Assembly (NCBI GenBank): GCA_001939945.1
Contig: MOEB01000031.1
Location: 1-50,131 of the forward strand
DNA from: Aerophototrophica crusticola
Lineage (GTDB): Bacteria; Pseudomonadota; Alphaproteobacteria; Azospirillales; Azospirillaceae
DNA length: 50,131 nt
Direction: 5' to 3'
In this document: in pieces, positions 950 to 18,317 of the stretch
How positions within the stretch are numbered: the first letter of the stretch is position 1
Layout: every line of letters starts with the position of its first letter
Translations under genes and position numbers: made by a program
Notes under the pieces: generated by a model
Seen by the model: only the letters and a program-made list of their open reading frames with translations
Told to the model about the DNA's origin: nothing
Databases searched by the model: none

Positions 950-1056
950 GTCGGATTAGCGGCCCGCGGGCCGCGTAATCCGACGGCGTCCGCACCCTCG
1001 CGCCCCATTGTTGGGGCCGTCGGATTACGGCGCCAGGGGCGCCTAATCCGACCTAC
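946..1056. repeat. GTAGGTCGGATTA repeat, copy 1, convergent junction
   Basis: The element starts GTAGGTCGGATTAG and ends CTAATCCGACCTAC. It holds two nested hairpins, each made of GTCGGATTA and TAATCCGAC arms, around a variable centre. It lies between the converging aldolase and hybrid kinase genes, supplies the TAG stop of the first, and encodes the last residues and stop of the second. It looks like a REP-type palindromic element and could act as a bidirectional terminator. Other copies are at 19695-19775 and 23978-24066. Confidence 0.85.
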
Positions 1057-2974
1057 GGTTCACCGCTGCCGCCAGCGCCTCTTGCAGCTGGGTCCAGTCG
1101 ATGGGCTTGGTGACGTAGCCGGTGAAGCCGGCTTCCATGTGGGCCTGGCGCTGTTCAGGCAGGGCGTCGGCGGTCAGGGCCAGGATCGGCAGGGTGGCCA
1201 GGTCGCCGCCCAGGGCACGCAGGGCACGCGTGGCCGCGTCGCCGTCCATGACGGGCATCTGGATGTCCATCAGCACGGCATCATAGTGGCCCAGCTTCGC
1301 CCGCTCTACCGCTTCCGCCCCGTTGACCGCCACCTCCACCGCGTGGCCGGCCCGTTCCAGCATGCGGGTGATCATGGCGCGGTTGACATTGTTGTCCTCC
1401 GCCAGCAGCAGGCGGAGGGGACGGGCCGGGGCCGTGCCCGCGCTGGTACCCCTCCCCGCCGCGGCCATGGCCGGCGGGGCCTGGACGGTGACGGTGAAGA
1501 CCGATCCCTCCCCGGGCCGGCTCGCCACCGCCACCTGCCCGCCCATGGCCTGGACCAGCCGGCGGGTAATGGCAAGGCCCAGCCCCGTGCCGCCATAGCG
1601 GCGGCTGGTGCTGTCGTCGGCCTGCACGAAGGGCTCGAAGATGCGGGCCTGCTGCTCCGGCGTCATGCCGATGCCGCTGTCGGCCACGGCGAACTCCAGC
1701 ACCGGCCCGCCGTCCCCCGCCCGGCTGGCGGCGCGCAGGATGATGGCCCCGTCCCGGGTGAACTTCACCGCGTTGCCCACCAGGTTCACCAGCGCCTGCC
1801 GCACCCGGTGCGGGTCGCCCAGCACCAGGCCGGGGGCCAGGGCGGAAGCCTGGAGCCGCAGCCATGTGCCCGCATCCGCCGCCCGGCCGCGGAACAGCTC
1901 CGCAACCTCCGCCAGCAAGGCCAGCGGGTCGAAGGGGATGCGCTCCAGCCGCAGGCCGCCCGCCTCGATCCGGCTGTAATCCAGCACGTCGTCCAGGATG
2001 GCCAGCAGGCTGCGGGCGGAGCTGTGCATGGTCCGCACCAGGGCCGCCATCTCCGGCGCCCCGGCCAGTTCCGGCTCCAGCAGGTCCAGCCCGCCCAGCA
2101 CGGCGGTCATCGGCGTGCGCAGCTCGTGGCTCATCACCGCCAGAAGGTGGGACTTGGCCCGGCTGGCGGCGTCGGCAGCCTCCGCCGCGCGCAGCGCCTC
2201 CCGCTCGGCCCGCACCTCCTTGGTCACGTCGCGGGCCACGCCCCGGTAGCCCAGGAAGTTCCCCGCCTCATCGAACACCGGCAGCCCGCTGGTGGAGACG
2301 GTGTGCTCCGCCCCGTCCCGGTCCACCAGCCCGTAACGGAAGTCGCGGAAGGGTTGCCGCGTGTCCAGGGCGGCGTTCAGCGCGGCGAGCTGGGCCTCCG
2401 ACACGTGGCCGAACTCCTCCCGCCGCCGGCCCAATACCAAGCCGGGGTCCACGCCCAGGTTGCGGATGCCCTCCGACACCCAGGTCAGCCGGTGGTCGAT
2501 CCCCGTTTCCCAGAACCAGTCGTTGGCCAGGCCGGCCAGGTCGCGGAAGCGGACCTCGCTGCGGCGCAGGGCGGCCTCCGCCTCCTTCTCCCGGTCGGCG
2601 TCCACCAGGATGCCGTTCAGCACCACCGTGCCGTCCGGCTCCCGAACCGGCCGGGCCAGGGCCCGCCACCAGCGGGCGGTGCCGTCGGGCAGCAGGAAGC
2701 GGCCTTCGAAATCCCAGTCCCTGAGGTGGCGCACCGCCTCGTGCAGGCTGCCCAGCCAGCGCGGATAGTCCTCCGGGTGGACGGGCAGCAGGGTCCAGTC
2801 CGCCACCAGCGCCGCCGGGTCCACCCCATACAGGTCGCGCACCCGTTCGCTGACATAGCGATAGCCGCCCTGGCCGTCCGGCCGCTCCACCCATTGGAAG
2901 ATCACGGCCGGCAGGCTGGCGGCCAGCCCCTCCGGCCCGCCGCGCAGCACCGGCACCAGGGCGGCGTCGCTCAT
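1043..2974 (-). CDS. Hybrid sensor histidine kinase, PAS-PAS-HisKA-HATPase-REC
   Basis: This 643-residue cytosolic hybrid kinase has no transmembrane segment. Two PAS-like sensor domains (about 20-130 and 140-255) precede a HisKA domain with phosphoacceptor H283 in MSHELRTP. The ATPase domain shows the N box around N401 (GNAVKFT), G1 at D432 (DSGIGM) and G2 (GGTGLGLAI). A C-terminal receiver follows with acceptor D570 ([11 protein letters not shown]) and K623 (TKP). The ATG overlaps the TGA of the pentapeptide gene (ATGA), making this the last gene of the chemosensory operon. Its receiver could exchange phosphate with the HPt domain encoded two genes upstream (inference). The final residues RRSD and the TAG stop are encoded by the intergenic repeat. 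Confidence 0.9.
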
Positions 2975-4245
2975 GGCGTGGCTCCCACCGTGCCCGGCAG
3001 CCAGGCCGACGCCGCCGGGTCCAGCAACGCCCCCTCCAGCCCCGCGCCCGCCAGCGCCACCCCGGACAGGCGCGCGGCGCGCAGGTCGGCCCGCCGCAGG
3101 TCGGCGCCACGCAGGTCCGCCTTCTCCAGCACCGCCCCTTGCAACAGGCACTCCACCAGCGTGGTGGGCAGGGTCCGGCCCTGGGGCAGGGTGAGGGGGC
3201 CGGCCTTCGCCCCGGAAAGGTTGGCCCCGGCCAGGTTCGACCGTTCCAGCCAGGTGCCGCGCAGGTCGGCACCGGACAGGTCCGCCCGGGCCAGCTTCGC
3301 CCCGCCCAGCCGGGCCGCCTGCATCTGGGCCCTGGCCAGGTTGGCGCCTTCCAGGTTGGCGCCCGTGCCCAGGGCCATGGTCAGCACTTGGCCGGACAGG
3401 TCCGCCCCTGTCAGGTCCAGGGCGGACAGGTCCAGCCGCCGGCCCTTCTTGCCCAAGCTCTCCAGCCATTCCGCATGCTGCCACAGCAGGCTGTCCAGGG
3501 TGGCGGCGTCCGGCTTCACGGGGGCGAGGGGGGCTTGGCTGCGCGGGCGCCCGGCAAGGCGGCTGGCATCCGCGTCGGTGCGGATGGCGCCATTCAGGGC
3601 CAGCGGGTCCACCCGGGCGCCGGTCAGGTCGGCGCCGCGCAAGTCGGTGCCCGCCAAGTCCGCCCCTTCCAGGTCGGCGTCCACGAACTTGGCACCCCGC
3701 ATGTCGGCCTGCCCCAGCCGGGCATCCACCAGCCGGGCGCGGCTGAAATCCGCGTTGGCGGCGATGCTGCCGGACAGCCGGGCCCGGGTCAGGTTCGCCT
3801 CCACCAGCGAGGTGGCGCTCATGTCCGCCGGCCCCGCCTCGAACCCCACCATCTTGAAGCCCTGCTTGCCCGCGCTGGCCATGCTGCCATCCCGCAGGTC
3901 GCAGTCCAGCAGCTGTGCCCCGTCCAGGTTGGTGCCCTTCAGGTTGGCGCCGCGCAAATCGGCCCGCTTCAGCCGGGCGCGGCGCATGTCGGCCCCGCGC
4001 AGGTCGGCGCCGAACAGGTCGGCATGGTCCAGCACCGCGTCGCGCAGGTCGCAGCCCTGCAGGTCCGCGCCCGGCAGGCTGGCCCCGGTCAGGTCACGGC
4101 CCGCCAGGCTCAACCCCGACACGTCAAAGAATTGCAGGTTCAGCCGCGCCCCGCCCGGCCGCCCGGCGACAAAGCGGGTGTGCCGGTCCACCATCTGGTC
4201 CAACTGGTCCTGGGACAGGCGCGGGCGGCGCGGGGCCGTGGTCAT
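2971..4245 (-). CDS. Pentapeptide-repeat protein
   Basis: This 424-residue protein is built almost entirely of A(D/N)Lxx pentapeptides, for example [18 protein letters not shown] and [10 protein letters not shown], in two long blocks (about 45-225 and 265-415) split by a 30-40 residue non-repeat linker. Such repeats form a right-handed quadrilateral beta helix. Known members mimic DNA against gyrase or act as scaffolds; nothing here indicates gyrase binding. No signal peptide or membrane helix is seen. Both ends overlap neighbours by ATGA, so it is translationally coupled between the GAF-HPt protein and the hybrid kinase. A scaffold role in that signalling complex is a reasonable guess. The DNA looks repetitive on both strands only because of the pentapeptides. 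Confidence 0.85.
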
Positions 4246-5486
4246 GGCGCGAGGCCCCGGGCCCGGGCAAAGGCGTCCAGGGCGGCTTGGCTCGCCGCCC
4301 AGCAGCCTTCCATGCGGCCCGCCAGGGTCGCCACCTGGGCGGTGTCCCGGGCCTTGGCCGCCTGCTCCAGGGCGCGGGCCGTCTCCGACAGGCGGGTCAG
4401 GCCGAAGGAGCCGGTGACGCTCACCACCTCATGCGCCCGGCGCCAGATGCCCTCCAGGTTGCCCTGGCGACGGGCCGCCTCCAGCCCGGCCAGGGCGTCG
4501 GTGGTATTCTGGACCATGGAGCACAACAGGTCCCGCAGGGTGGGGCCGCCCACCGCGTCCAGCAGCTCCGCCAGCGCATCCTCGGCCAGCAGGGGGGCTT
4601 CGGGCTCCACCACCACGGGCGGCGGCGGCGGTGGGGCTGTGAGCGGGGCCGGGCCGGGTGCGGCGGCGCGCAGGGGGAAGCGGGGAAGGGGGGCCGGCTT
4701 CGCTTCCTCCAGCAGCCGGTCCACGGCCTTGGACAGCTCCGCCGCGGTGGCCTCGAAGGCGTCTACATAGTCCCGCTGTTCCGCCGTCAGCGGGGTGGAC
4801 TGCATCAGCTTCACGGTGCCGTTCAACCCGTTCACCGGCAGCCGGATGCCGCGGGCCAGGCCCTGGTCCAGGGCGGCGAGGCCCTTGGCTGCCGCCTCCG
4901 CCGCCTGGCGGGAACGGTCGGCCAGGGCCAGGGCGGTGCGCAGGTCGTCCTCTACCCGCTGTCGCTCCGCCAGCTCGGCCTGGGCGGATTCCGCCGCATG
5001 GCGCAGTTCCAGGGCGTCGATGGCGACGGCGGCAAGGTCGCGCAGGATGGCTTCCTCGTCGGGCGTGAACTCCCGCCGCGGCACGTCGCTGATGGCGCAG
5101 AGGGTACCCAGCCGGTGGCCGGATGCCACCACCAGCGGCGCGCCGGCATAGAAGCGGATGTGCGGCGCCCCGGTGACCAGCGGGTTTCCCTGGAACCGCG
5201 GGTCCTCCCGCGCGTCCAGCACCACCAGGGGTCGGTCATCCAGGATGGCGTGGGCGCAGAAGGCGGTGTCGCGCGACGTCTCGCAGGCCGCCAGCCCTAC
5301 CCTGGACTTGAACCACTGCCGGTCCCGATCCACCAGGGACACGAGACAGATGGGGACGCCCAGCAGGCGGGCGGCCAGCCGGGTGATGCGGTCGAACCGC
5401 TCCTCCGGCCCCGTGTCCAGCACGGCATAGCGGCGCAGGGCCTCCAGCCGCTCCGCCTCGTCAGGGGGATGGGGGGCGGGGATCAT
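4242..5486 (-). CDS. GAF / degenerate HisKA / HPt signalling protein
   Basis: The 414-residue protein has an N-terminal GAF domain (about 20-160, with LCAISDVPR), then a helical segment (about 165-263) that resembles the dimerising HisKA hairpin of hybrid kinases. There the usual SHE(I/L)RTP box reads ARGIRLP, so the phosphoacceptor histidine is replaced by R212; no ATPase domain follows. After a proline-rich linker (264-300) comes an HPt domain with the phosphotransfer motif RRAHEVVSVTGSFGL, putative H352. It cannot autophosphorylate as a kinase but should accept phosphate on the HPt domain. The start at 5486 is chosen because the GAF domain begins right after it; a longer frame upstream overlaps cheD in another frame. 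Confidence 0.8.
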   Translation of the reverse strand: MIPAPHPPDEAERLEALRRYAVLDTGPEERFDRITRLAARLLGVPICLVSLVDRDRQWFKSRVGLAACETSRDTAFCAHAILDDRPLVVLDAREDPRFQGNPLVTGAPHIRFYAGAPLVVASGHRLGTLCAISDVPRREFTPDEEAILRDLAAVAIDALELRHAAESAQAELAERQRVEDDLRTALALADRSRQAAEAAAKGLAALDQGLARGIRLPVNGLNGTVKLMQSTPLTAEQRDYVDAFEATAAELSKAVDRLLEEAKPAPLPRFPLRAAAPGPAPLTAPPPPPPVVVEPEAPLLAEDALAELLDAVGGPTLRDLLCSMVQNTTDALAGLEAARRQGNLEGIWRRAHEVVSVTGSFGLTRLSETARALEQAAKARDTAQVATLAGRMEGCWAASQAALDAFARARGLAP

Positions 5487-5598
5487 CGCGGCGCTCCCGC
5501 AAGCAAACAGGCCGGCGACTGCCGGCCCGCGGGCTCGTGCCCGCGTAAGCCAAGCCCGCGGATGCGGGCGCCCGGCGGCCAAGCGGAAAAGGTTTCCA

Positions 5599-6216
5599 TC
5601 AGAACAGCTCCACCTCGCCCTCCACCGGCTGCTCGCGCAGGCGGCGCTGGTGCTCGCGCTCGCGGCGGGCGACCTCGAGGGCCGTCGCCATGCCGATCGT
5701 CCGGACGAAGCCCTCGCCCGTGACCGGTATGTAGCGCACCGCCCGGGCATTTGTCCCGCCCACATCCCAGGCCAGGGTCGGGATGCCCTCGTCCGCCAGA
5801 TAGGCCATGACGAACTCCACGTTCCGCAGCCCGATGCCCGACGACCATTCCCCGAAGCTGGCCCCGCCGAACACCTTGGCCACCAGGTCGCGGCGCTGGG
5901 CGCCACGGGACAGCAGCCCGTTGACCAGCCGTTCCATGGAGACGCTGCCATAGCGCGCCGACGGGCTCAGCTTGTCGCCCGGCGCCTCCGGCAGCAGGAA
6001 ATGGTTCATGCCGCCGATCCGCCGCACGGGGTCGTGCAGGCAGGCGGCGACGCAGGACCCGAGCGTGGTGGCCAGCACCCGGTCCGGTTCCGTCACCACG
6101 GCGAACTCCCCCGCGATGATGTGGGTGACGTGTTCCGCCCCGCTGCCGCCGGGGGCCTTGGGTCGGGGCCCGCGGGCGGAGTCGGCCGGTTGGACGGCGG
6201 GGTCCCTCCTGCTCAT
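5599..6216 (-). CDS. cheD: Chemoreceptor glutamine deamidase CheD
   Basis: CheD hydrolyses specific receptor glutamines to glutamates and, in some bacteria, is held by the CheY-P phosphatase CheC. The 205-residue product has the family core with catalytic C55 in TLGSCVAACLHD and H72 in GGMNHFLLP, 17 residues apart as in characterised CheD proteins. About 28 N-terminal residues before the core are low complexity. No cheC is present in this operon. The protein ends GEVELF, nearly the same tail as the soluble MCP-like protein in the same operon (GDIELF), which hints at a shared docking peptide. The ATG overlaps the upstream PP2C gene's TGA. Confidence 0.92.
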   Translation of the reverse strand: MSRRDPAVQPADSARGPRPKAPGGSGAEHVTHIIAGEFAVVTEPDRVLATTLGSCVAACLHDPVRRIGGMNHFLLPEAPGDKLSPSARYGSVSMERLVNGLLSRGAQRRDLVAKVFGGASFGEWSSGIGLRNVEFVMAYLADEGIPTLAWDVGGTNARAVRYIPVTGEGFVRTIGMATALEVARREREHQRRLREQPVEGEVELF

Positions 6217-7361
6217 GGCCGCGTCACCGACACGGCGCTGAGGTCGTCGGCGAAGCGCACCTTCTCCCGCAGGGCGGCCACCATGCGGTCCAGCCGCAGG
6301 CCGTGGCCGCCCCGGGCCGCCCCGGCCGCCGCCGCCAGCCCGTCCTCCTCCAGCATGCCGTCCGGGCCTTCCGCCTCGGTGAAGCCGTCGCTGGCCAGCA
6401 GCAGGGTGGCCCCGGGCGGGAAGGGGACGGTGCGGTTCTCATACCGGGCCTTGCCCAGGATACCGGCGGGCAGGCCGCCCGCCTCCAGGAAGCAGAAGGT
6501 CCCCTCCGCATCCAGCATCAGGGGCCGCGGCGCCCCGGCGGAGGCATAGGTCATGGTCCCCGCGGCGGCGTCCAGCACGGCCACCAGGATGGTGGCGAAG
6601 GACCCGGTGGGCAGCAGCCGCTTCAAGGTTGCGTTCACCTCTTCCAGGTGGGCGGCGGGGTCCAGCCCCTCGGCCGGCTGGCGGCGCAGCTCCCCTTGCA
6701 GGCGCAGGGCATGGATGGCGGCGGTGATGCCGTGGCCGCTGAAATCCACGATCCAGACCACCAGCCGCCCGCGCCCGTCGGCCCGCAAATCCCAGAAATC
6801 GCCCCCCAGTTCCTGGCTGGGCTCGAAGAAGCTCTGCACCATCAGGCCCGTGGCCCCCTCGGCCAGCAGCACCTCCGTCGTGCCGGGCAGCACCCGCTCG
6901 TGCACCCGGCGGGCCAGGGCCAGCTCCATGGCCCGGCGGGTGCGGTAATCGGTCAGCTCCCGCAGCCGCATGCGCCGGGCCAGGTGGACATGCACCCGGG
7001 CCAGCAGCTCCTGCGGGTGGATGGGCTTGACGATGAAGTCCGTGGCACCGGCGGCGAAGGCGCGGCGGCGGTCGTCGCTGCGGTTCAGGGCCGTCTGCAC
7101 GATCACCGGCAGGTCGCGATGGCCCTCGGCCCGCAGCCGCTGGCAGACCTCGAAGCCCTCCATGCCCGGCATGACCAGGTCCAGCAGCACCAGGTCCGGC
7201 GCCACCCGGGCCACCTGTTCCAGCGCCTCCAGCCCGTCGGCGGCCAGGGTGATGTGGCGGTATCCCGCCTGGCGCAGATAGGTGGACAGCAGCAGGCGGT
7301 TGGTCTCCTGGTCGTCCACCACCAGGATGCGGGCTTCCGGGTTCGACGTGCGCGCGATCAT
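6213..7361 (-). CDS. Response regulator with active-type PP2C (SpoIIE/RsbU) domain
   Basis: This 382-residue protein has an N-terminal receiver (acceptor D61 in LLDLVMPGMEG, K112 in VKP), a short helical linker with a basic repeat (about 125-155) and a SpoIIE/RsbU-type PP2C serine phosphatase domain. The metal-site motifs are intact: GGDFWD at 186-191, VDFSGHG at 205-211, ASDG at 323-326 and ADD at 371-373. RsbU-like enzymes dephosphorylate STAS anti-anti-sigma proteins, here most plausibly the one at 8904-9209. The start at 7361 overlaps the upstream TGA (ATGA). A longer frame upstream overlaps the preceding gene and is not needed. Confidence 0.9.
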   Translation of the reverse strand: MIARTSNPEARILVVDDQETNRLLLSTYLRQAGYRHITLAADGLEALEQVARVAPDLVLLDLVMPGMEGFEVCQRLRAEGHRDLPVIVQTALNRSDDRRRAFAAGATDFIVKPIHPQELLARVHVHLARRMRLRELTDYRTRRAMELALARRVHERVLPGTTEVLLAEGATGLMVQSFFEPSQELGGDFWDLRADGRGRLVVWIVDFSGHGITAAIHALRLQGELRRQPAEGLDPAAHLEEVNATLKRLLPTGSFATILVAVLDAAAGTMTYASAGAPRPLMLDAEGTFCFLEAGGLPAGILGKARYENRTVPFPPGATLLLASDGFTEAEGPDGMLEEDGLAAAAGAARGGHGLRLDRMVAALREKVRFADDLSAVSVTRP

Positions 7362-8410
7362 GCGGCCTCCCGCAGGACCAGGGCGGCGGCCCCGTTGCGC
7401 CCGGCGTCGCGGGCCCGGCCGACGATGGCGTGGGCGGCACCATCCGGGTCGGCGGCCAGCAGAAGCTCCACCGTGTCCAGCCCGCCGGCGGCCTCCAGCG
7501 TGTTGGCGCTGGCCAGGACCGCCGTGCCATAGCCCGGCTCCAGCATGCCCGGCGGCAGGGGGCGCAACCGCCCGCCCTCGCCCAGGCGGAACAGGCGGGC
7601 GCCGCCGCTGGCGGCCCACTCCACGCCCCCAGGGCCGATGCGCACGCAGCAGAAGCCCGACCAGGGCAGGCTTTCCCCCGGCTCGGCCACCGTGTCGGTC
7701 ACCAGCCCCACCAGCTCGGCACAGCCCACCCCCGGGTCCATCAGCCGGTCCACGGCGGCCCGGACGTTGAAGGCGTTCACCGCGGCCACGGCGCCGGTGG
7801 AGCCCACATCCACCAGATGCAGCATCCTGTCACCGCCGGGCAGGACGGCCAGCCCCCACAGGTCGCCGCCGAACCCGTCGCCCACGGAAGCCACGGCGAT
7901 CCCGGCGGCCCCCGGCGCGAACAGGGCGGCCACCTCCGCCGGGTCGGGCAGCAGCCCGCGATAGATGGGGCGGGCCATGGCGAACTCCCGCTCCATGCCC
8001 GACCGGTATTCCTGCAGCTCCCGCAGGATGAAGCGGTGGTCCAGGTGCACGCGGGTCCGGGCCAGGATCTCCCGCGGGTCGGTGGGCTTGGACACCACGT
8101 CCGTGGCCCCGGCCATGAAGGCGGCGGTGCGGTCGGCGGGATCGGTCAGGGCCGACTGCACCAGGATGGGCACGTCCTCGAAATCGGGGCGCTGGCGCAG
8201 GCTGCGGCAGACCTCGAACCCGTCCATTCCCGGCATCACCAGGTCCAGCACCACCAGATCCGGCAGCCGCCCCGCCGCCGCGTCCAGCGCGGCGGGGCCG
8301 TCGGCGGCCAGCACCAGTTCCGTGAAGCCGGCAGCGCGATAGATGGCGGCCAGCATGTCGCGGCTGGCGGCGGCATCGTCCACGATCAGGATGCGGCCCC
8401 GCTGGCTCAC
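7358..8410 (-). CDS. Response regulator with degenerate PP2C (pseudophosphatase) domain
   Basis: This 350-residue protein is a tandem paralogue of the next gene: receiver (acceptor D56 in VLDLVMPGMDG, K108 in SKP) and a C-terminal PP2C-like region. The receiver looks functional but the phosphatase motifs are eroded: GGDLWG keeps D183 but has G186 for the second Asp, VDVGSTG replaces the DxxGHG motif, ASAN replaces the ASDG metal site, and the final DD is RN. It probably lacks phosphatase activity and may compete for or regulate the active copy. The GTG start at 8410 overlaps the upstream TGA (GTGA), matching the coupling style of the operon; another GTG at 8428 is possible. Confidence 0.85.
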   Translation of the reverse strand: MSQRGRILIVDDAAASRDMLAAIYRAAGFTELVLAADGPAALDAAAGRLPDLVVLDLVMPGMDGFEVCRSLRQRPDFEDVPILVQSALTDPADRTAAFMAGATDVVSKPTDPREILARTRVHLDHRFILRELQEYRSGMEREFAMARPIYRGLLPDPAEVAALFAPGAAGIAVASVGDGFGGDLWGLAVLPGGDRMLHLVDVGSTGAVAAVNAFNVRAAVDRLMDPGVGCAELVGLVTDTVAEPGESLPWSGFCCVRIGPGGVEWAASGGARLFRLGEGGRLRPLPPGMLEPGYGTAVLASANTLEAAGGLDTVELLLAADPDGAAHAIVGRARDAGRNGAAALVLREAA

Positions 8411-8907
8411 AGGTCGAACTCCATGCACAGGCGGCGGCCGCCGTCCCGCACCTCGCAGCGGCTGGCGAAGCGGGACACCAGGCCCAATCCCCGGCCGAAG
8501 GGCTGGTCCGGGCGCGGCTCCACCGCGTCATAGCCCGCCCCCTCGTCCACCACCTCCAGCCGCAGCACCTTGCCCGCCAATCGGGCATCCACCGTGACCC
8601 GGCGCCCGGCCAGGGCCGGGTCGGCCAAGCGGCCGGCCAGGGCCTCGGCATAGCGCTGCATCGCCGCCGCCGTGCCCACCTCCATGCTGGACAGGCCCAG
8701 ATTGCCATGGATCACGGCGTTGGCCACCGCCTCCTGCAAGGCGGTCTCCACCGCGTCCCGATCCGCCCCGGGGGCCAGGTCGGCAAGCATCCGCGCCACG
8801 GCCGCGGCCAAAGGCCGGCCATGGGCCAGGGCCGTGGTGACCGACAGGGACAAGGCCATGTCCCCGCCCGCAGGCCCCACCTCGGCAGCGCCCCCGCCGT
8901 CGCTCAT
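8407..8907 (-). CDS. RsbW/SpoIIAB-like ATP-binding serine kinase (anti-sigma type)
   Basis: The 166-residue product is a single GHKL-type ATPase domain: N box LQEAVANAVIHGNL with E59 and N63, G1 box VVDEGAGYD with D121, and G2 box GRGLGLV near 138-144. There is no HisKA domain. Such stand-alone domains phosphorylate a STAS partner or bind a target protein (classically a sigma factor) in partner switching. It directly follows a STAS gene with an ATGA overlap, so the two products are obvious partners. No sigma factor gene is in the window, so the final target is unknown. An internal ATG at codon 17 is an alternative start. Confidence 0.88.
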   Translation of the reverse strand: MSDGGGAAEVGPAGGDMALSLSVTTALAHGRPLAAAVARMLADLAPGADRDAVETALQEAVANAVIHGNLGLSSMEVGTAAAMQRYAEALAGRLADPALAGRRVTVDARLAGKVLRLEVVDEGAGYDAVEPRPDQPFGRGLGLVSRFASRCEVRDGGRRLCMEFDL

Positions 8908-9209
8908 GGGCGCAGGTCCAGCACCTTGCCCAGGTCGGCGACGGTCAGCACCCGCAGAACCTGGCCGGTGGCGCCCCGCACGTCCAGGGTCTTGTCCTTC
9001 TGCTCCACCTCTTCCTTGACGATCAGCAGCATGCCGATGCCGGAGCTGTCCACGAACTCCAACCCGTCCAGGCGCAGGGTGACGTGCCTCGCCGGGGCGG
9101 CGCCCAGGTCACGCATCAGCAGGCGCATCTTCTCATAGTCGTTGAAGGTCAGGCGGCCGGAAAGCGCCGCCTCCGTCAAGCCCGGGCCTTGGGTGATCCT
9201 GTAATCCAT
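8904..9209 (-). CDS. STAS-domain anti-anti-sigma type protein (RsbV-like)
   Basis: The 101-residue protein is one STAS domain. FVDSSGIGMLL around residues 52-62 holds the conserved serine pair (S55/S56) that is phosphorylated by the partner kinase in SpoIIAA/RsbV. The start at 9209 has a strong GAGGAGGA site. It sits directly between the soluble MCP-like gene and the RsbW-like kinase gene. Expected cycle: kinase phosphorylates the serine and releases; the PP2C protein removes the phosphate and restores binding. The role assignment is by family and neighbourhood. Confidence 0.9.
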   Translation of the reverse strand: MDYRITQGPGLTEAALSGRLTFNDYEKMRLLMRDLGAAPARHVTLRLDGLEFVDSSGIGMLLIVKEEVEQKDKTLDVRGATGQVLRVLTVADLGKVLDLRP

Positions 9210-9220
9210 GGCGGTCCTCC

Positions 9221-10378: not shown

Positions 10379-10392
10379 GGGTCCTCCGGAAC

Positions 10393-11460
10393 TCAAGGGC
10401 CGTCCGCCGCGGCGGCCAGGATCGCGCCCGCGATGCGGGACAGGTCCAACTCGGCCACCACGGCGCCGGCCAGCATGGCCGCCCGCGGCATGCCATAGAC
10501 GACGCAACTCGCCTCGCATTCCCCGATGGTGTGGGCGCCGGCGGCCCGCATGTCGGCCAGTCCCTGGGCCCCGTCGCGGCCCATGCCGGACAGGATGACA
10601 CCCACGGCCTTGGCCCCCGCCACGGTGGCGGCGGATTGGAACAGCACGTCCACCGATGGCTTGTGCCCCGACACCGGCGGCTCGTCCGCCAGCCGGCACA
10701 CCAGGCCCGACCCGCCGCGGGCCAGCCGCAGGTGCCGGTCGCCCGGGGCGATGACGGCCCGGCCGGGCAGCAGGGGCATCCCTTCCTCCGCCACCACCAC
10801 CTCCAGCGCCGAAAGCTTGTTCAGCCGGTCGGCGAAGCTCTTCACGTAGCCCGGGCCGATGTGCTGGACGATGGCCACGGGCGGGCTGTCCGGCGGCAGG
10901 GCCAGAAGGATCTCCCGGATGCGCTCCACCCCGCCGGTGCTGGCGCCGATGGCCACCAGGGGGCGCTTCCAGGCCCGGCGGGGGGCCGACGGCGCGGCCT
11001 TTGGCACCGGCGCGCATTTCGGGCCGGGGGGAGGGAGTCTCCCCGGCCGCACCCGGGTGCCGGCGGCGGCCCGCACCTTGTCCGCCAGCTCCGCCGCGAA
11101 GGCCGCGAACTCCGCCGCGTCACGGGCCATGGGCTTGGCGATGCAGTCCACGGCGCCGATCTCCAATGCCCTGATGGTGGCCGACGTCCCCTCCCCGGTG
11201 AGGGTGGAGACCATGACCACCGGCGTGGGCCTGAGGGACATGATCTTCTCCAGGAAGGAAAGGCCGTCCATGCGCGGCATCTCCACGTCCAGGGTGACCA
11301 CGTCCGGGTCCAGGGCCTTGATCTTCTCCCGCGCCTCATAGGGGTCGGCGGCGCTGCCCAGCACGCGGATGCCCTGGCTCTCCAGCGCGGCGCCGATCAT
11401 CTGCCGCATCAGGGCGCTGTCATCCACCACCAGGGCGGTCACGGGCTTGTCCTGGCTCAC
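10393..11460 (-). CDS. cheB: Chemotaxis response regulator protein-glutamate methylesterase CheB
   Basis: CheB demethylates receptor glutamates when phosphorylated by CheA. The 355-residue product has a receiver with acceptor D58 (TLDVEMPRMDG) and K109 (AKP), a 50-residue proline-rich linker and the methylesterase domain with catalytic S174 in IGASTGG, H200 in IVQHIGPGY and D296 in GMGRDG. The GTG start at 11460 overlaps the cheR stop (GTGA), the operon's usual coupling. A longer upstream frame runs through cheR and is not used. Confidence 0.95.
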   Translation of the reverse strand: MSQDKPVTALVVDDSALMRQMIGAALESQGIRVLGSAADPYEAREKIKALDPDVVTLDVEMPRMDGLSFLEKIMSLRPTPVVMVSTLTGEGTSATIRALEIGAVDCIAKPMARDAAEFAAFAAELADKVRAAAGTRVRPGRLPPPGPKCAPVPKAAPSAPRRAWKRPLVAIGASTGGVERIREILLALPPDSPPVAIVQHIGPGYVKSFADRLNKLSALEVVVAEEGMPLLPGRAVIAPGDRHLRLARGGSGLVCRLADEPPVSGHKPSVDVLFQSAATVAGAKAVGVILSGMGRDGAQGLADMRAAGAHTIGECEASCVVYGMPRAAMLAGAVVAELDLSRIAGAILAAAADGP

Positions 11461-12299
11461 CGCACCCTCCGGTACAGGGTGGTGCCGGCGGCCTCGAACC
11501 GGTCGCTGACGCCGTGCAGGCTTTCCGAATGGCCGACATAGAGCAGCCCGCCCAGGGGCAGCAGGTCGGCGAAGCGGTGCACCACGCCCGCCCGCCCCTC
11601 CCGGTCGAAATAGATCATGACGTTCCGGCAGAAGATGGCGTCGAACGGCCCGCGCATGGGCCAGGAGTCCTGCAGGTTCAGCGGCTTGAAGGTGATGATC
11701 TGGCGCAGGGGCTCGGCCATGGACAGGGTGTCCGGTTCCGGCCCCGGTACCGTGTGCCTGGCGCGCATGGCGGCGGGCACGGCGTCGGCCGGATAGACGC
11801 CGCGCCGCGCCTTGGCCAGCACGTCCGTGTCGATGTCGGTGGCCAGGATGGCCGCGTCCCAGCGGGACAGGTCGCGCAGGCTGTCCCGCACCACCATGGC
11901 GATGGAATAGGGTTCCTCCCCCGTGGAGCAACCGGCTGACCAGAGGCGCAGCCGTGGCTTGGGCGATCCCGCCTGGGCCTCCGCCAAGGCGGGCAGCACG
12001 GTCTTGGACAGATGGTCCAGGTGCGCCGGCTCGCGGAAGAACTTGGTCAGGTTGGTGGTCAGCAGGTTGACCAGCCGGCCCCGCTCCTCTTCCCCTTCCG
12101 GCCCTTCCAGCCGCCGGACATAGGCGTCGAAGTCGGGCAGGCGCAGCTCCCGCAGGCGGCGGGACAGCCGGGCATAGACCATCTCCGCCTTGCCCTGGGC
12201 AAGGCTGATGCCGGCCAGCTCATGCAGCAGGCCGGCGATCACCTGGAAGTGGCGCCGCTCGAAGCGGAACTCCCGGTCCTGGCTGGGGGCGGTGCCCAT
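11457..12299 (-). CDS. cheR: Chemotaxis protein methyltransferase CheR
   Basis: CheR transfers methyl groups from S-adenosylmethionine to receptor glutamates. The N-terminal helical domain (FERRHFQVIAGLLHELAG) and the SAM-binding motif LWSAGCSTGEEPYSIAM are clear, with FCRNVMIYFD near the C-terminal third. The start is uncertain: ATG at 12299 (280 residues, used here) lies 7 bases after the receptor stop, while ATG at 12329 (290 residues) overlaps the receptor gene through its C-terminal pentapeptide codons. Neither has a strong ribosome site. The adjacent receptor ends DWKKF, a likely CheR tether. Confidence 0.95.
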   Translation of the reverse strand: MGTAPSQDREFRFERRHFQVIAGLLHELAGISLAQGKAEMVYARLSRRLRELRLPDFDAYVRRLEGPEGEEERGRLVNLLTTNLTKFFREPAHLDHLSKTVLPALAEAQAGSPKPRLRLWSAGCSTGEEPYSIAMVVRDSLRDLSRWDAAILATDIDTDVLAKARRGVYPADAVPAAMRARHTVPGPEPDTLSMAEPLRQIITFKPLNLQDSWPMRGPFDAIFCRNVMIYFDREGRAGVVHRFADLLPLGGLLYVGHSESLHGVSDRFEAAGTTLYRRVR

Positions 12300-12306
12300 G
12301 GCAGGC

Positions 12307-15030
12307 TCAGAACTTCTTCCAGTCGTCATCGTCCGCCACCGCCAGGGCCGGCGCCTTGGCGCGGAAGCCGCCGGCCAGCGACGCGGTGGCCGCCCCGGTA
12401 CCGGGCCGCTTCACCGGGGAAGCCGGTTTGGCCGGGCCCCGCGCCGGGGCCTTGGCGGCGGTGGCGCGGTGGCCGTAGCCCTGGGACCGGGCCGCCGGCC
12501 GCTCCGCCAGGGACAGGCCGGCGTCGCGCACCTGGAAGAAGCTGACCAGGCCGATCAGTTCCTGCGCCTGGTCCTCCAGCGACTGGGCGGCGGCGGCGCT
12601 CTCCTCCACCAGGGCGGCGTTGCGCTGGGTCATCTCGTCCATGGCGGAGACGGCGCTGTTCACCTCCTCCACCCCGTTGGACTGCTCCGCCGTGGCCCGG
12701 GCGATGTCGGCCACCAGGTCGGCCACCCGGGTCACGTCCGCGGCGATGCTGGTCAGGGCGTCGCCCGCCGCGGCCACCAGCCCCACCCCGTCCTTCACCT
12801 CGGCGTTGCTGCCGACGATGAGGTCCTTGATCTCCTTGGATGCCTGGGCGGAGCGCTGGGCCAAGGTCCGCACCTCCTGGGCCACCACGGCGAAGCCGCG
12901 GCCCGCCTCCCCGGCCCGGGCGGCCTCCACGGCAGCGTTCAGGGCCAGCAGGTTGGTCTGGAAGGCGATCTCCTCGATCACGCCGATGATGTCGGTGATC
13001 TTCTGGCTGGAGCCCTCGATCCGCTTGATGGCGGTGACTGCCTGGACCGAGACCTCGCCGCCCTTCTTGGCGGCACCGCGGGCCTGCTCGGCCACCGTGC
13101 CCACCTGGCGGGCGCTGTCGGCGTTGTTACGCACGGTGGCCGCCAGCTCCTCCATGCTTGCCGCCGTCTCCTCCAGGGATGACGCCTGCTGCTCCGTGCG
13201 CTCCGACAGGTCCTGGCTGCCCGCCGCCACCTCCCGCGCCGCCTCGGCGATGCCGGCGGCGGTGCGGCTGATCTGGCCCACCGTCTCCTCCAGCTTGTCG
13301 GCGGTGGCGTTGGCATCGTCGCGCAGGCGCTGGAACACGCCGTCGTAGCTGGTGTCGATACGGCGGGACAGGTCGCCATGGGCCAGGGCCGACAGCATGC
13401 CCGCCAGTTCCTCCGCCACGTTCGCGACGGTGCCCGACACCTTGTTCACCCCTTCCGCCACCATGCGGAAGAAGCCATCCTTGCCGTCCAGGGCGATACG
13501 GCGGCTGAAGTCACCGCGGGCGGCACCCGCCACCACGTCGGCGATCTCCTGCTCCGTGGCCAGCTCGGCGGTCAGGTCCTTCCACTCGATCACCGTGCCC
13601 ATGCGCTCCCCGCGCGGGCCGATGACGGGGGTGGCCATGATCTCGAAGGTGCGACGCCCCACCTTGGCCTTGGATTTGTGGGTGGTGGTCAGCACGGCCA
13701 GCATGCTCTGCTGGTGGGCCGGGTTGCGGTGGAAGATGTCGATGGACCGGCCCAACAGGGTCGCGCTGTCGAAATTGGGCATCACGTGCCGGATGTCTTC
13801 CTGGGCCAGGGCGAACATGCGCTGGGCGGCCCGGTTGACATAGACGATGATGTTGTTCTCGTCCGACATCATGATGTTGGCCTCGACCGCGTCCAGGCCG
13901 TTCCGGGTACGGACGCCGATCACCGCGGTCTCCTTGAAGGCGGCCACGGCGCGGGCCATCTCGCCCACCTCATCCTTCTGCCCGGTGAAGCTGACCTGGG
14001 CGTCCAGCCGGTTGTCCAGCAGGGCCCGCATGGTGTCGCGGATGCCGTTGATCGGCCCCACGATGCCGTTGGCGATGACACGGGCGGACAGGGCGCCCAG
14101 GACCGTCGCCAGCAGGCACAGGCCCGCGGTGATGGCCAACGCCCAGTTGGTGGCGGTGGCTGTGTCCGCCTCGGCCTTCAGCACCATGGCCTGGAACTCG
14201 TTCACCTCACGGGCGATGACCTCGGTCATGTCCTCGCCCAGGGTGGGCAGCTTGCCGTTCAGCAAGTCCTCGGCCTCCGCCGTGGCGGCGGCGGCCAGCT
14301 TAAAGGTACGGCCATAGTCCGCCAGCAGGGCGTCGACCGTGGCGGCGGCCTGCCGGGCCGCCGGGGTGGTGACCTGTCCCTGGATGCCCCGGATGTCGGA
14401 CTGCATCTCCGCGAACAGCCGGTCGAAGTCGTTGGAGGTGGTGGAGTCGCTGACCGACAGGGCGCGGTAGGTCACCAACCGCAGGTCGCTCCACTGCCCG
14501 GCCACCTCGGCCACCATGATGCCCACGGGACCGGTGGACTGGGTGCCCAGGGAGGTGCGCAGGATGTCGAAGGCCTGGCCCAGCCGGGGGGCCAGGGGCT
14601 CCAGCTGCTCGGCCACGATCTTGTCCATCCGGGCGCGGGCGACCAGCAGCGCGTCCACGTGGCCCAGCCACTGGGCGGACTTGGTCTCCAGCTCCTTGAT
14701 GTCGTCCAGATGGTCCTGTGGCCAGGTGAGGCGGGCCTCACCCACGGTCTTGCGCAGCTGCTCCTTTGCCACGGCCAACCGGTCGGCATGGGCCTGGAAG
14801 CCGGTGTAGCCATAGTCGCGGACCCGCAGCCGGGCGCGGACCAGGGCTATCTCGACCCGGGTGGCGGCGCTGGCGGCGCTGGTGGCGCCATGCACCGTCT
14901 TCATGTCGTCCTGGACGGAGTACTGGCTCCACATCCCCTCGGCCCCGACCAGGACCAGCAAGCCGATCAGCAGGCCGAAGGCGATCCAGAGCCGGCGCGG
15001 GATGGGCATGTCGGACAGCGTCTTCATCAT
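12307..15030 (-). CDS. Methyl-accepting chemotaxis protein, HBM-type sensor, HAMP, PAS
   Basis: This 907-residue chemoreceptor has TM1 at about 14-32, a long helical periplasmic region (about 35-290) of the helical-bimodular kind, TM2 at about 295-318, HAMP (about 318-370), a PAS domain (about 375-490, with [15 protein letters not shown]), a second HAMP-like helix pair (490-590), and the signalling hairpin with its tip around 685-725 ([35 protein letters not shown]). After a 75-residue Ala/Pro-rich linker it ends DWKKF, which fits the W-x-x-F pentapeptide that recruits CheR and CheB. The start has GAGGGGGG upstream. Ligand unknown; the PAS domain could sense redox or bind a cofactor. Confidence 0.93.
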
Positions 15031-15051
15031 CGTTTCCCCCCTCGGCCTGCC

Positions 15052-15591
15052 TCAGGCCCCGGCCGTGCCGGCCATGGTGTCTTGCATCTCGTCCAGGGCC
15101 TGGGTCTCGGCGGCGAACAGCCGGCCCAGGTCCAGCACCGTGACCATGCGGTTGCCGCTGGCTACCAGGCCCAGGATGGCGGCCCGGTCCACCAGCCCGC
15201 CGTCGCCATTGGGCGCGGGCAGGATGTCGCCGTCGGCCACGTCCAGGATGTCGCTGATGGCGTCGGTCAGGATGCCCTGCAGCCGCTCCCCGATGGTCAG
15301 CACGATGACCACGTGGCGGCGCGTCGCCTCCGTCTGCGGGCCGCCGAAGCGGGCGCGGAGGTCGAAGATGGGCACGATGACGCCGCGCAGGTTGATCACG
15401 CCGCGCACATGGGGCGGCAGGTTGGGCAGCCGCGTCTCGGGCGTCCAGCCCCGGATCTCCTTCACCGCCAGGATGGGGATGCCGAACTCCTCCGTCCCCA
15501 GGGTGAAGGTCACAAGTTGGCGTGACGGCTGGCTGCCGGGGGCCGCGGGCGGGGCCGCGGCGTCGCGGGTGGCGGGCAGGGGCTTATGCAT
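15052..15591 (-). CDS. cheW: Chemotaxis adaptor protein CheW
   Basis: CheW couples receptors to the kinase CheA. The 179-residue product has the CheW fold with FGIPILAVKEI, LPNLPPHVRGVINLRG and VPIFDLRARFG, preceded by about 25 low-complexity residues. The ATG at 15591 overlaps the cheA TAA stop by 8 bases, so translation is coupled. It is somewhat longer than E. coli CheW because of a short C-terminal tail (ALDEMQDTMAGTAGA). Confidence 0.95.
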   Translation of the reverse strand: MHKPLPATRDAAAPPAAPGSQPSRQLVTFTLGTEEFGIPILAVKEIRGWTPETRLPNLPPHVRGVINLRGVIVPIFDLRARFGGPQTEATRRHVVIVLTIGERLQGILTDAISDILDVADGDILPAPNGDGGLVDRAAILGLVASGNRMVTVLDLGRLFAAETQALDEMQDTMAGTAGA

Positions 15592-17674
15592 GGGCGAACT
15601 CCTCCGCGGCGGCGGTGCGGGCAAGGCCGCGGCCCATGGCCTGCAACCCCGCCACGTCCAGGATCAGGGCGACGCGGCCGTCGCCCAGGATGGTGGCCGC
15701 GGCGATGCCGTCCAGCCGGCGGTAATGGGCGTCCAGGCTCTTCACCACCACCTGCTGCTGGCCCAGCAGCTCATCCACCACCAGGCCGAAGCGGCCGCCT
15801 TCCTCCGTTTCCAGCAGCACCACCAGGGCGCGGGTGGGGTCGGGCTGGGCACCCTGGATGCCCAGCAGCCGGGCCAGGGGGGCAAGCTGCACATATTCCC
15901 CCCGCGCCATCATCACCGTGCCCTGTCCGGGCACGCGGTGCAGGTCGCCGGGGCGGGGGCGCAGGGTTTCCACGATGTTGGTCAGGGGTAGCACGAACCG
16001 CTCCCCGCCCGTGCGGATCACCATCCCGTCCATCACCGCCAGGGTCAGGGGCAGGGACAGGACGAAGCGGGTGCCCTCGCCGGGCGTATTGTGCACGGTG
16101 ATGCGCCCGCCCAGTTGGGTGATGTTCCGGCGGACCACGTCCATGCCGACGCCGCGGCCGGAGACGTTGGAGATGGCCTCCGCCGTGCTGAAGCCGGGCA
16201 GGAAGATGAGCTGGTCCACCTCCTCCTCCGACAGCTGTGCGTCGGCGGGGACCAGGCCCTTGTCCACGGCCTTGCGCAGCACCCGGCCGCGGTCGATGCC
16301 GCGGCCGTCGTCCGACACCTCGATGACGATGCGGCCCGACCGGTGCTGGGCGGACAGGGTGACCGTGCCGGCCCGCGCCTTGCCCGCCGCCTCCCGGGCG
16401 TCCGGCGCCTCGATCCCATGGTCCATGCTGTTGCGGATCATGTGGGTCAGGGGGTCGGCCAGGTTCTCGACCACCGTCTTGTCCACCTCCGTCTCCTCGC
16501 CGCGCATGACGAGGCCGACCTCCTTGCCCAGGGTGGTGGACAGCTCCCGCACCAGCCGGGGCATGCGGGCGAAGACGGACCGCACGGGCTGGGCCCGCAC
16601 GGCCATGACGCTTTCCTGCAATTCGCGGGTGTGGCGGGCCAGCTCCTCCAGCCCCTCCAGCAGGCGGGGGGCCTGGCCCGGCGGAAGGCTGGCGGCCTGC
16701 TCCGCCACCATGGCCTGGGTGATGACCATTTCCCCCACCAGGTTCACCAGCCGGTCCAGCTTGTCCAGGTCCACCCGGATCGACTGGCCGGCCAGGGCGC
16801 CGCGGCCCCCATTCTCCCCCGCCGCTGGGCGCGGGGGCGCCGGCTCGGCGGGCAGGCCGGGGGACAGGGGTTCCGCCATCGCGCCGCCTGGGCCCACCAG
16901 GGCCACCTCCCGGCCGATGTCCGGGGGCGGGCCGGCCGCGGGCTCCGGCTCGGCCTCCGTCTCCACGGCCACGTGCAGGTCGCAATCCTCGGCCACGAAG
17001 TCGAAGATCTCCCGCACGTCCGCCTCGGGCTGGCCCGTCTCCAGCCGCAGGGTCCAGGACAGGTGGATGCTTTCCGGGTCCAGATGGTCCAGGGTGGGGA
17101 CCGCGTCGTGGTCGCACTCCACCTCCAGCGGGCCGAAATGGGCGAGCGCGCGGAACAGGTACAGGGGCTCGTTGCCCCGGGACAGCATGTGCGGGTGCGG
17201 GGCGAAGCGGATCTGGAAGCGTTGCGGCCCGTCCGCCGCGGCTGTTGGCGTCGTCTCCACCGCGGCCCCGTCCGCCTCCGCCGGGCCCAGGACGGCGCGC
17301 AGGTCGGCGGCCACCCGGGCGGCCAGGATGCCATCGCCCTCCCGGCCCTCCCGCGCGTCGGCCAGCAGGGCGCCCAGAACGTCGTTGGCGCGGATCAGCA
17401 GGTCCACCAGCGCCCCGGTGGGCGCAAGCCTGCCGGCCCGCACCTCGTCCAGCACCGTCTCGAACTCATGGGCGAAGGCCACCAGGGCCGACAGGCCGAA
17501 GGTGCCGCCGCCGCCCTTGATGGAATGCACCCCGCGGAAGACGGCGTTCACCGTCTCCGCGTCGGCCCCGCCGCGGGCAAGGTCCAGCAGGCCCGCCTCG
17601 ACGATGGCCAGCATCTCGGCGCATTCATCGAAATAGGTCTGGCGGAACTGTTCCAGGTCGGTGAAGCCGGCCAT
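15584..17674 (-). CDS. cheA: Chemotaxis histidine kinase CheA
   Basis: CheA autophosphorylates on an HPt histidine and passes phosphate to CheY and CheB. Order in the 696-residue protein: HPt P1 with H50 in VHSIKGGGGTFGL; a linker and P2-like region (about 150-240); P3 dimerisation helices (LDKLDRLVNLVGEMV onward, near 305); the P4 ATPase domain with MIRNSMDHGIE, SDDGRGID and GRGVGMDVV; and the CheW-like P5 domain from about 560. All kinase motifs are intact. P2 contains an unusual segment (PQRFQIRFAPHPHML) also found in other non-E. coli type CheA proteins. It starts 11 bases after cheY. Confidence 0.96.
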   Translation of the reverse strand: MAGFTDLEQFRQTYFDECAEMLAIVEAGLLDLARGGADAETVNAVFRGVHSIKGGGGTFGLSALVAFAHEFETVLDEVRAGRLAPTGALVDLLIRANDVLGALLADAREGREGDGILAARVAADLRAVLGPAEADGAAVETTPTAAADGPQRFQIRFAPHPHMLSRGNEPLYLFRALAHFGPLEVECDHDAVPTLDHLDPESIHLSWTLRLETGQPEADVREIFDFVAEDCDLHVAVETEAEPEPAAGPPPDIGREVALVGPGGAMAEPLSPGLPAEPAPPRPAAGENGGRGALAGQSIRVDLDKLDRLVNLVGEMVITQAMVAEQAASLPPGQAPRLLEGLEELARHTRELQESVMAVRAQPVRSVFARMPRLVRELSTTLGKEVGLVMRGEETEVDKTVVENLADPLTHMIRNSMDHGIEAPDAREAAGKARAGTVTLSAQHRSGRIVIEVSDDGRGIDRGRVLRKAVDKGLVPADAQLSEEEVDQLIFLPGFSTAEAISNVSGRGVGMDVVRRNITQLGGRITVHNTPGEGTRFVLSLPLTLAVMDGMVIRTGGERFVLPLTNIVETLRPRPGDLHRVPGQGTVMMARGEYVQLAPLARLLGIQGAQPDPTRALVVLLETEEGGRFGLVVDELLGQQQVVVKSLDAHYRRLDGIAAATILGDGRVALILDVAGLQAMGRGLARTAAAEEFAHA

Positions 17675-17685
17675 GGCTGCGGCCT

Positions 17686-18051
17686 TTACGGGCAGACGGT
17701 GCGGACGACCTGGACCAGCTTTTCCGGGTTGAAGGGCTTCACCAGCCAGCCCGTGGCCCCGGCGGCCTTGCCTTCCTGCTTCTTGGCGCCATCCGCCTCG
17801 GTGGTCAGCATCAGGATGGGCGTGGACTTGTAGCTGGGCAGGGCGCGCAGGCCCCGGATCAGCGCCAGCCCATCCATCACGGGCATGTTCAGGTCGGTGA
17901 TGACCAGGTCGAAGCGGCGGCCCGCGGCAAGGTCCATGGCCTTCTTGCCGTCCTCCGCCTCTGCCACCTCATAGCCGGCCCCCTTCAGGGTGAAGGCCAC
18001 CATGTCCCGCATGGTCCGCGAATCATCGACCGTCAGCACACTCTTCGTCAC
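17686..18051 (-). CDS. cheY: CheY-type single-domain response regulator
   Basis: The 121-residue receiver protein begins TKSVLTVDDSRTMRDMV and has acceptor Asp in VITDLNMPVMDG and the conserved lysine in LVKPFNPEKL. This is the normal alphaproteobacterial CheY size. The GTG start at 18051 overlaps the TGA of the STAS gene (GTGA); a second GTG at 18063 would add four residues. Because the operon also carries receiver-PP2C proteins, this CheY may compete with them for CheA phosphate; whether it binds FliM is not testable from sequence. Confidence 0.95.
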   Translation of the reverse strand: MTKSVLTVDDSRTMRDMVAFTLKGAGYEVAEAEDGKKAMDLAAGRRFDLVITDLNMPVMDGLALIRGLRALPSYKSTPILMLTTEADGAKKQEGKAAGATGWLVKPFNPEKLVQVVRTVCP

Positions 18052-18317
18052 CGCGCGCTCCACCGTTCAAGCCATCCGGCCAAGCCAAGGTCCCGGCAGG
18101 CTTCCCGCAACTCCGGCGAGGGGGCCTGCACCTGGAAGGCCACCCCGTCGCGCTCCGCCTGCCGGCTTGCCGCCACCAGGACCTGGAGCGCCGCCGTGCC
18201 TGCCCGGACCACGCCGTGCCCGTTCACCGTCACCGGCCCGCCGGCCGCGAAGGCGGCCAGCAGCACCGCCCGCAGGTCGGGCGCCGTTTCAGGGGAAAGT
18301 TGCTCAGGCAGGAACAT
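18048..18317 (-). CDS. STAS-domain protein at the head of the che operon
   Basis: This small STAS protein (89 residues from ATG 18317) resembles the lipid/chemotaxis-associated STAS type: LPEQLSPETAPDLRAVLLAA, then VRAGTAALQVLVAA where canonical anti-anti-sigma factors have DSSG. The usual phosphoserine is thus absent, although a threonine lies nearby, unlike the second STAS protein at 8904-9209. Start choice is uncertain: ATG 18344 would add nine residues including a rare AGA codon; 18317 has AGAG five bases upstream. It is the first gene of the 16-gene operon and overlaps cheY. Confidence 0.75.
   Translation of the reverse strand: MFLPEQLSPETAPDLRAVLLAAFAAGGPVTVNGHGVVRAGTAALQVLVAASRQAERDGVAFQVQAPSPELREACRDLGLAGWLERWSAR

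Follow-up and report, generated by a model that had tools for sequence, protein, structure and literature searches.

Chemosensory clusters of class F7 have been traced back to an ancestral, stage 1 arrangement in gammaproteobacteria, in which genes for a STAS protein, CheY, CheA, two CheW-like proteins, an Aer2-like protein, CheR, CheD, CheB, an McpA-like protein, a second STAS protein and a serine phosphatase follow one another, and whose function was called unclear by the authors who traced its evolution (Ortega et al. 2020, PMC7184735). In that work, alphaproteobacterial F7 systems form a clade of their own, and gene orders are given for gamma- and betaproteobacteria. The F7 system of Azospirillum brasilense is the che4 operon, which encodes the Tlp4a receptor (PMC6759762) and CheS, and in which CheA4 and CheY4 mutants are null for chemotaxis (PMC8561660, PMC8100600). 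In Shewanella oneidensis, the Che1 F7 cluster shares one locus with the CrsR-CrsA partner switch, for which control of RpoS has been suggested (PMC9855816), while the RbaV-RbaW-RbaY set of Rhodobacter capsulatus is an alphaproteobacterial group of STAS, RsbW and receiver-PP2C proteins without a known sigma target (PMC3999984). The pairing of a che cluster with a partner switch is therefore not new in kind, having been published for F7 clusters and for Shewanella Che1. Here we describe a 16-gene operon of Aerophototrophica crusticola that lies on a 50,131-nucleotide stretch of contig MOEB01000031.1 (hereafter, the window). We hold it to be rather probable that this is an F7-class chemosensory operon, orthologous to che4, which has kept the ancestral gene set including a partner-switching module and works in the way proposed below.

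The sequence-only reading of the window listed 16 consecutive minus-strand genes, and all of them are open reading frames at window positions 18317 down to 1043, in a genome of 6.06 Mb and 328 contigs. Pfam domain searches bore out its domain labels, with four corrections that concern the junction overlaps, one of the PP2C proteins, the first STAS protein and the GAF-HPt gene. Its statement that most genes overlap by ATGA or GTGA was too strong: 10 of the 15 junctions overlap, but by exactly 4 bp in just 6. Spacing among the first 13 genes ranges from -23 to +21 bp. After a STAS gene (STAS1), the chemosensory core comprises cheY (17686..18063; Response_reg, 102 bits; 63-73% identity to Azospirillaceae CheY), cheA (15584..17674; HPt, dimerisation, HATPase and CheW domains by Pfam; che4/F7 type), cheW (15052..15591; CheW, 122 bits), a membrane chemoreceptor gene (12307..15030), cheR (11457..12329; CheR, 200 bits) and cheB (10393..11460; CheB_methylest, 198 bits, plus a receiver). 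These are followed by genes for a soluble MCP-like protein (sMCP), a second STAS protein (STAS2), an RsbW-like kinase and two receiver-PP2C proteins, the first a predicted pseudophosphatase (psPP2C).

By sequence comparison, the operon core is orthologous to che4 of Azospirillum, a cluster of class F7. The order STAS-cheY-cheA-cheW-mcp-cheR-cheB is the che4-type order, with cheD displaced (5599..6216; CheD, 83 bits); in the relatives examined cheD sits between cheR and cheB. The receptor has the HAMP-PAS-HAMP-MCP architecture of Tlp4a from the A. brasilense che4 operon (PMC6759762) and ends in DDDWKKF. The window CheA displays 54-59% identity to CheA of the family where most of the length was aligned; the F7 class itself is taken from PMC6759762 for A. 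brasilense, the window CheA having been compared by pairwise similarity to che4-type CheA of Azospirillaceae. Alphaproteobacterial clusters have the same gene order as the stage 1 F7 systems. However, the window differs from stage 1 in its moved cheD and its one cheW instead of two, and neither a separate RsbW, nor a pair of dead and active phosphatases, nor a CheZ-like MCP is mentioned in the section on gene orders of PMC7184735.

The sequence-only reading had made its proposal depend on the switch genes staying next to cheA in related genomes, and this linkage held. In 20 regions picked from the matches of a search of 82 family genomes, cheA and the switch genes occur together in 14, in the order STAS1-cheY-A-W-mcp-R-D-B-sMCP-STAS2-RsbW-PP2C-PP2C (ends are cut in some, and L049 and L050 gave no mcp match). 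Region L039 has the che genes from mcp onward and no cheA, and L053 is cut at cheD. The order with psPP2C before PP2C is common to Azospirillum (A. brasilense among others) and Skermanella. When named genomes were scanned with sMCP, 53 loci emerged, 42 alphaproteobacterial (L075-L116) and 11 from Methylophilaceae (L117-L127). Many of the 42 are close kin; cheA, STAS2, RsbW and PP2C all lie on the plus strand in 36 of them, the A. brasilense loci L079, L081, L082 and L100 included. The six misses are three short contigs (L098, L106, L116), a locus without cheA in 21 kb (L102), and the Hwanghaeella (L111) and Kiloniella (L115) clusters, discussed below. Among 337 alphaproteobacterial genomes drawn evenly, sMCP was detected at E<=1e-45 in 21, from 18 of 252 genera, counting the window and one Azospirillum. 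For the 20 regions that represent the listed sMCP matches other than these two, genes were sought by tblastn: cheA was found in 17 and STAS2 with a receiver-PP2C in 14; 13 regions have all three, and 12 contain an RsbW-like match on one strand or the other. The exceptions are L140, L147, L150 and L154 (neither STAS2 nor PP2C), L149 (STAS2 alone), L142 (which starts at a contig end) and L151 (STAS2 and RsbW, no che genes in view). Because the core is conserved over many genera, it is not a chance assembly; the pairing of che cluster and switch is old and kept in many related bacteria.

The switch itself has most of the parts that define this kind of module. STAS2 (8904..9209; STAS_2, 50 bits) is an RsbV-like antagonist with the phospho-site DSSG, and its phosphorylatable serine is kept in all 16 class-wide loci that have STAS2. 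The RsbW-like protein (8407..8907; HATPase_c_2, 53 bits), a predicted serine kinase of the anti-sigma HATPase type, retains the N- and G-box residues. A natural fusion links these modules in two class-wide loci, L153 and L155, where a single protein contains kinase, receiver and PP2C (the L155 kinase match scores below the Pfam cut-off). The window encodes a short form of RsbW, of 166 amino acids (aa); in other Azospirillaceae the protein has an N-terminal extension (total of 242 aa in L082). A structure model of the A. brasilense protein (L082:11586-12311; pLDDT 88) contains an N-terminal domain of alternating strands and helices, for which Foldseek returned LvrC of Leptospira, titled a response regulator, as top match (TM 0.47 only), followed by RsbW and SpoIIAB for the kinase part. 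We read this extra domain, which the window protein lacks, as a probable pseudo-receiver, since inspection by eye shows no conserved aspartate where one would be expected. We considered and rejected a missing gene in the relatives, between STAS2 and RsbW, because the extra stretch encodes this N-terminal RsbW domain with its receiver-like pattern.

A second switch set of STAS, RsbW and receiver-PP2C genes occurs at L082:16625-18969, downstream on the opposite strand and convergent with the che4-linked set. It is present at the same place in L041-L043, L076, L077, L079-L081, L083 and L100 (A. brasilense and close kin), and its PP2C ligands are intact in the three near-identical copies checked.

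STAS1 (18048..18317; 89 aa; STAS_2, 51 bits, run on a longer start) had also been counted as a switch component. At its phospho-site, aligned by eye, the serine is not conserved: the window has T and relatives have T or A, so that STAS1 is not expected to be a serine-switched antagonist. It is better read as a CheS-like, STAS-only protein outside the switch. Its place before cheY and the fact that CheS is a named che4 protein (PMC8561660) point in this direction; CheS of Sinorhizobium binds CheA and affects CheY phosphorylation (PMC12654446).

The two receiver-PP2C proteins have diverged in a consistent manner. Both had been presented as receiver-PP2C proteins of the switch. The second (6213..7361) is indeed a recognizable phosphatase of the SpoIIE/RsbU type (SpoIIE, 135 bits) with intact ligands; its best NCBIfam match is RssB_Pseudo at 119 bits, far below the cut-off of 700. 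The first (7358..8428) matches the receiver model alone (87 bits, no SpoIIE match), and in its PP2C part the third acidic metal ligand is missing, T stands in place of H, and there is a gap at the aligned D4. Two active phosphatases are thus not what the operon encodes, one being dead by residue losses. Across 18 tandem pairs (the window and L038-L054), metal ligand D3 is lost in 18 of 18 first copies while D1-D4 are kept in 18 of 18 second copies, and all 36 receivers retain both the phospho-accepting Asp and the Lys. Outside the family, D1-D4 are kept in all 14 receiver-PP2C proteins beside STAS2. The dead copies form one clade (18/18, support 0.964) and the live copies another (18/18, 0.917), with the window basal in each. 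Mean receiver identity is 0.68 among dead and 0.72 among live copies, against 0.42 and 0.59, respectively, for the PP2C part. On account of these two clades, the position of the window and the contrast in identities, duplication and ligand loss look old, and the receiver of the dead copy appears to be still constrained.

An intact receiver joined to a catalytically dead PP2C, here a fold inferred from the alignment, is the architecture of RssB (PMC7226468, PMC12143880), an adaptor without PP2C active-site residues that takes RpoS to ClpXP (PMC7226468). In Pseudomonas aeruginosa, the RssB phosphatase domain is active and the adaptor role requires the STAS partner RssC (PMC12143880). In contrast to RssB, the dead copy described here adjoins an active twin and a STAS protein, and no RpoS was found; its adaptor role is putative.

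The soluble MCP-like protein (9221..10378; MCPsignal, 78.5 bits) adds a further element. It consists of an MCP hairpin, with no other domain by Pfam, followed by a CheZ-like segment with the motif MQFQDxxxQ and a C-terminal GGDIELF. D293 and Q297 of the motif and the last three residues, ELF, are invariant in 24 sMCP sequences; in the class-wide loci, FQDxxxQ is present in 17 of 20 and an [IV][DE][LM]F ending in 20 of 20. The DxxxQ motif of CheZ and CheT, as well as the FQ that precedes it in CheZ, is thereby found in sMCP (PMC7750401, PMC12654446); unlike in CheZ and CheT, it sits within an MCP-like protein without a CheZ model match. CheD shares the tail: in the window it ends in GEVELF, and [IVA][DE]LF occurs at or near the end of 16 of 18 class-wide CheD sequences. 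Among the 187 window open reading frames of at least 100 aa, sMCP and CheD alone share this [IV]ELF-type ending. The ends of sMCP, CheD and the CheZ-like proteins are presumably akin to the CheY-binding peptides of FliM and CheZ.

Support for the CheZ likeness also comes from Methylophilus, where a 180-aa protein encoded beside cheY has CheZ as its top Pfam match, under the cut-off (E 0.005), and ends in DIDLF. It resembles the C-terminal half of sMCP (E 9e-8 in a single comparison; hhalign 96%); because the protein was retrieved with a pattern drawn from the motif region, the match in its centre is in part a product of that selection, which does not apply to the DIDLF end or the place beside cheY. 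CheZ comes no higher than fourth (E 0.02) for a second Methylophilus protein. By model or by fold, membership of sMCP in the CheZ family was rejected: it matches no CheZ Pfam model, a search of the genome at E<=0.1 placed no such match on this contig, and a structure model of modest quality (pTM 0.37) has MCPs as its best Foldseek matches. The likeness rests on the motif, the C-terminus and the Methylophilus protein. From these, sMCP looks like a putative array-docked, CheZ-like phosphatase. An ordinary CheZ is also encoded in the genome, so sMCP need not be the sole phosphatase. Several CheZ-family proteins with FQD[LI][TS]GQ are encoded on contigs C1, C109, C212 and C259 of the window's genome (G000; L158-L164), and [IV]DxLF-type tails, among them IDALFD, IDSLFD and IDNLFD, are found in five of the six distinct CheZ-family proteins examined there.

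From gene content, conservation and the residues lost or retained, we infer the following phosphotransfer and binding steps. The array formed by the Tlp4a-like receptor, CheW and CheA would sense a signal, upon which CheA would pass phosphate to CheY for the motor, to CheB for adaptation and to the active receiver-PP2C at its receiver; CheA is likely the kinase of the receiver-PP2C proteins. Phosphorylation would switch the PP2C on, leading to dephosphorylation of STAS2-P, and unphosphorylated STAS2 would then bind the RsbW-like kinase, causing it to release its own target. With no signal, RsbW would phosphorylate STAS2 and keep hold of that target. The receiver-pseudophosphatase may give the receivers a second output that involves no catalysis: once phosphorylated, it would most likely bind STAS2-P or the target, as an RssB-like adaptor or as a competitor. 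Meanwhile, sMCP would dock in the array, where its DxxxQ segment and CheY-binding-like C-terminus could help to dephosphorylate CheY or other receivers, and STAS1 would act on CheA as CheS does. In the window's genome, the hybrid kinase and HPt protein at the operon end may also feed the receiver-PP2C proteins. A more specific version can be put forward only tentatively: that the Azospirillaceae F7 array drives two receiver-PP2Cs which split one ancestral role, one as a STAS-resetting phosphatase and the other as an RssB-like, phosphorylation-dependent adaptor for the same target, that an sMCP-CheZ hybrid sharing its C-terminal docking motif with CheD shuts off receivers at the array, and that the target is not a classical sigma factor.

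Several observations weigh against this proposal. Four of the 20 family regions carry the switch with no che genes in view: L055, L056 and L057 are stand-alone switch sets, L056 lacking RsbW, and L048 is a switch pair with no che match in 7.5 kb upstream. RsbW was not found on the same strand in the Hwanghaeella and Kiloniella clusters, nor by tblastn in 8 of the 20 class-wide loci, and its form also differs. About 113 bp separate sMCP from STAS2 in A. brasilense L082, so the switch may be transcribed apart there. The 50 matches that Foldseek listed for the sMCP structure model do not include CheZ. Finally, the 10 other genomes of the genus, two of them 92-93% complete drafts, yielded neither an sMCP orthologue (best E 1.2e-11) nor one of che4-type CheA. 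Presence in one of 11 genomes may reflect loss or an old transfer; a simple recent transfer from Azospirillum was rejected, since in each receiver-PP2C clade the copy from the window falls outside those of the other Azospirillaceae (FastTree, midpoint rooted).

The input to the switch is also contested by matches of hybrid-kinase type that lie near the cluster, on the plus strand, in 13 of the 42 named alphaproteobacterial loci and 5 of the 20 class-wide loci, so CheA is not the only candidate. P. aeruginosa offers a precedent, as its hybrid kinases serve HsbR through HptB (PMC6482189). The hybrid kinase of the window, acting via the GAF-HPt protein, might likewise drive the switch as in HptB-HsbR-HsbA, with the che genes as mere operon neighbours. 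The last three genes of the operon are coupled to each other by 4-bp overlaps and comprise a gene for a GAF-HPt protein (4242..5486), one for a pentapeptide-repeat protein (2971..4245; Pentapeptide, 203 bits) and one for a PAS-PAS hybrid histidine kinase with a receiver (1043..2974; Pfam). The stand-alone switch sets would also fit such an arrangement. However, the kinase matches belong to a general type and vary in position, no GAF-HPt match was found in other clusters whereas the switch genes stay with cheA, and a gap of 112 bp sets the three genes apart from cheD (a consensus scan found no terminator-like site in this gap). We regard this alternative as unlikely.

The GAF-HPt and pentapeptide genes had been taken as parts of the system. 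The former encodes GAF, degenerate DHp-like and HPt regions; its HisKA-like stretch scores 26.7 bits, just below the 26.9 cut-off, and by eye lacks the His, while the HPt matches. Among the matches listed from the 82 family genomes none reaches the HPt, all ending by about residue 266, and a conserved phosphorelay through this protein was rejected. Both genes are local add-ons. In the Hwanghaeella F7 cluster, a pentapeptide protein (33% identity) and a second CheD that ends in GDIELFD are encoded downstream of STAS2 (L111:12650-14522).

On the output side, three sigma factors with region 3 were detected in the window's genome, two RpoH-like proteins and a 665-aa frame presumed to be RpoD. No SigB/F/G-, FliA- or RpoS-type factor was among these region-3 matches, ECF factors not having been examined, and FlgM gave no match in the genome. 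The search for a classical sigma target therefore returned no candidate within this scope, and the module may operate as a partner switch does, on a different target. Since RsbW-like proteins classically bind sigma factors, the genome has two RpoH-like factors and CrsR-CrsA acts on RpoS (PMC9855816), the operon could be a general stress switch on an ECF or RpoH sigma factor to which the che genes provide sensory input. Yet no sigma gene was noted among the conserved neighbours, and in two-hybrid assays R. capsulatus RbaW bound RbaV and none of RpoD, RpoHI and two ECF factors, with limits of the test noted by the authors (PMC3999984). We find this explanation doubtful, though it retains some plausibility.

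The same sigma-factor negative, as well as the lack of FlgM, is compatible with a switch that acts on chemotaxis itself, where RsbW or STAS2 would bind an array or motor component and the output would be array tuning rather than gene expression. The tight linkage with adaptation genes and the ability of a STAS protein, CheS, to bind CheA (PMC12654446) would agree with this. Such tuning is possible but, in our judgement, improbable, as the sigma-factor search did not extend to ECF factors and the F7-linked switch of Shewanella acts on RpoS (PMC9855816).

Compared with the described systems, the locus combines known modules in a distinct form. In CrsR, the anti-sigma domain is within the same protein (PMC9855816), and its homologue HsbR joins receiver, PP2C and kinase (PMC6482189); in the operon described here, the kinase and the two PP2C proteins, active and dead, are encoded separately, and no RpoS-type factor was found. 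The account of RbaV-RbaW-RbaY in PMC3999984, in the parts available, describes neither a chemotaxis link nor a second, dead receiver-PP2C. PMC8561660 counts nine proteins for the A. brasilense operon, and the STAS2-RsbW-psPP2C-PP2C genes that follow in L079, L081, L082 and L100 are unmentioned in the parts of it consulted. A literature search, with subscription journals mostly outside its reach, found no recognizable description of the che4 switch genes. Within that literature, an alphaproteobacterial form with a split kinase, a dead/live phosphatase pair and a CheZ-like MCP did not turn up, which is what we regard as new.

These findings have implications beyond the window, as the alphaproteobacterial F7 version is present in the genetically tractable A. 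brasilense, where che4 protein mutants exist and have effects beyond chemotaxis (PMC8561660, PMC8100600). If CheA4 does control the attached switch, the switch would be a concrete path by which these effects arise, and it would open the way to the target of an alphaproteobacterial RsbW. The conserved dead/active phosphatase pair offers a natural test of how pseudophosphatases arise. Should the split-role version hold, a single array would govern at once the flagellar motor, the adaptation of receptors and a more persistent protein switch.

The operon is flanked upstream by a gene for a DUF2161 putative PD-(D/E)XK phosphodiesterase (18521-19345), and a class II aldolase gene on the plus strand (119-949) is convergent to its end.

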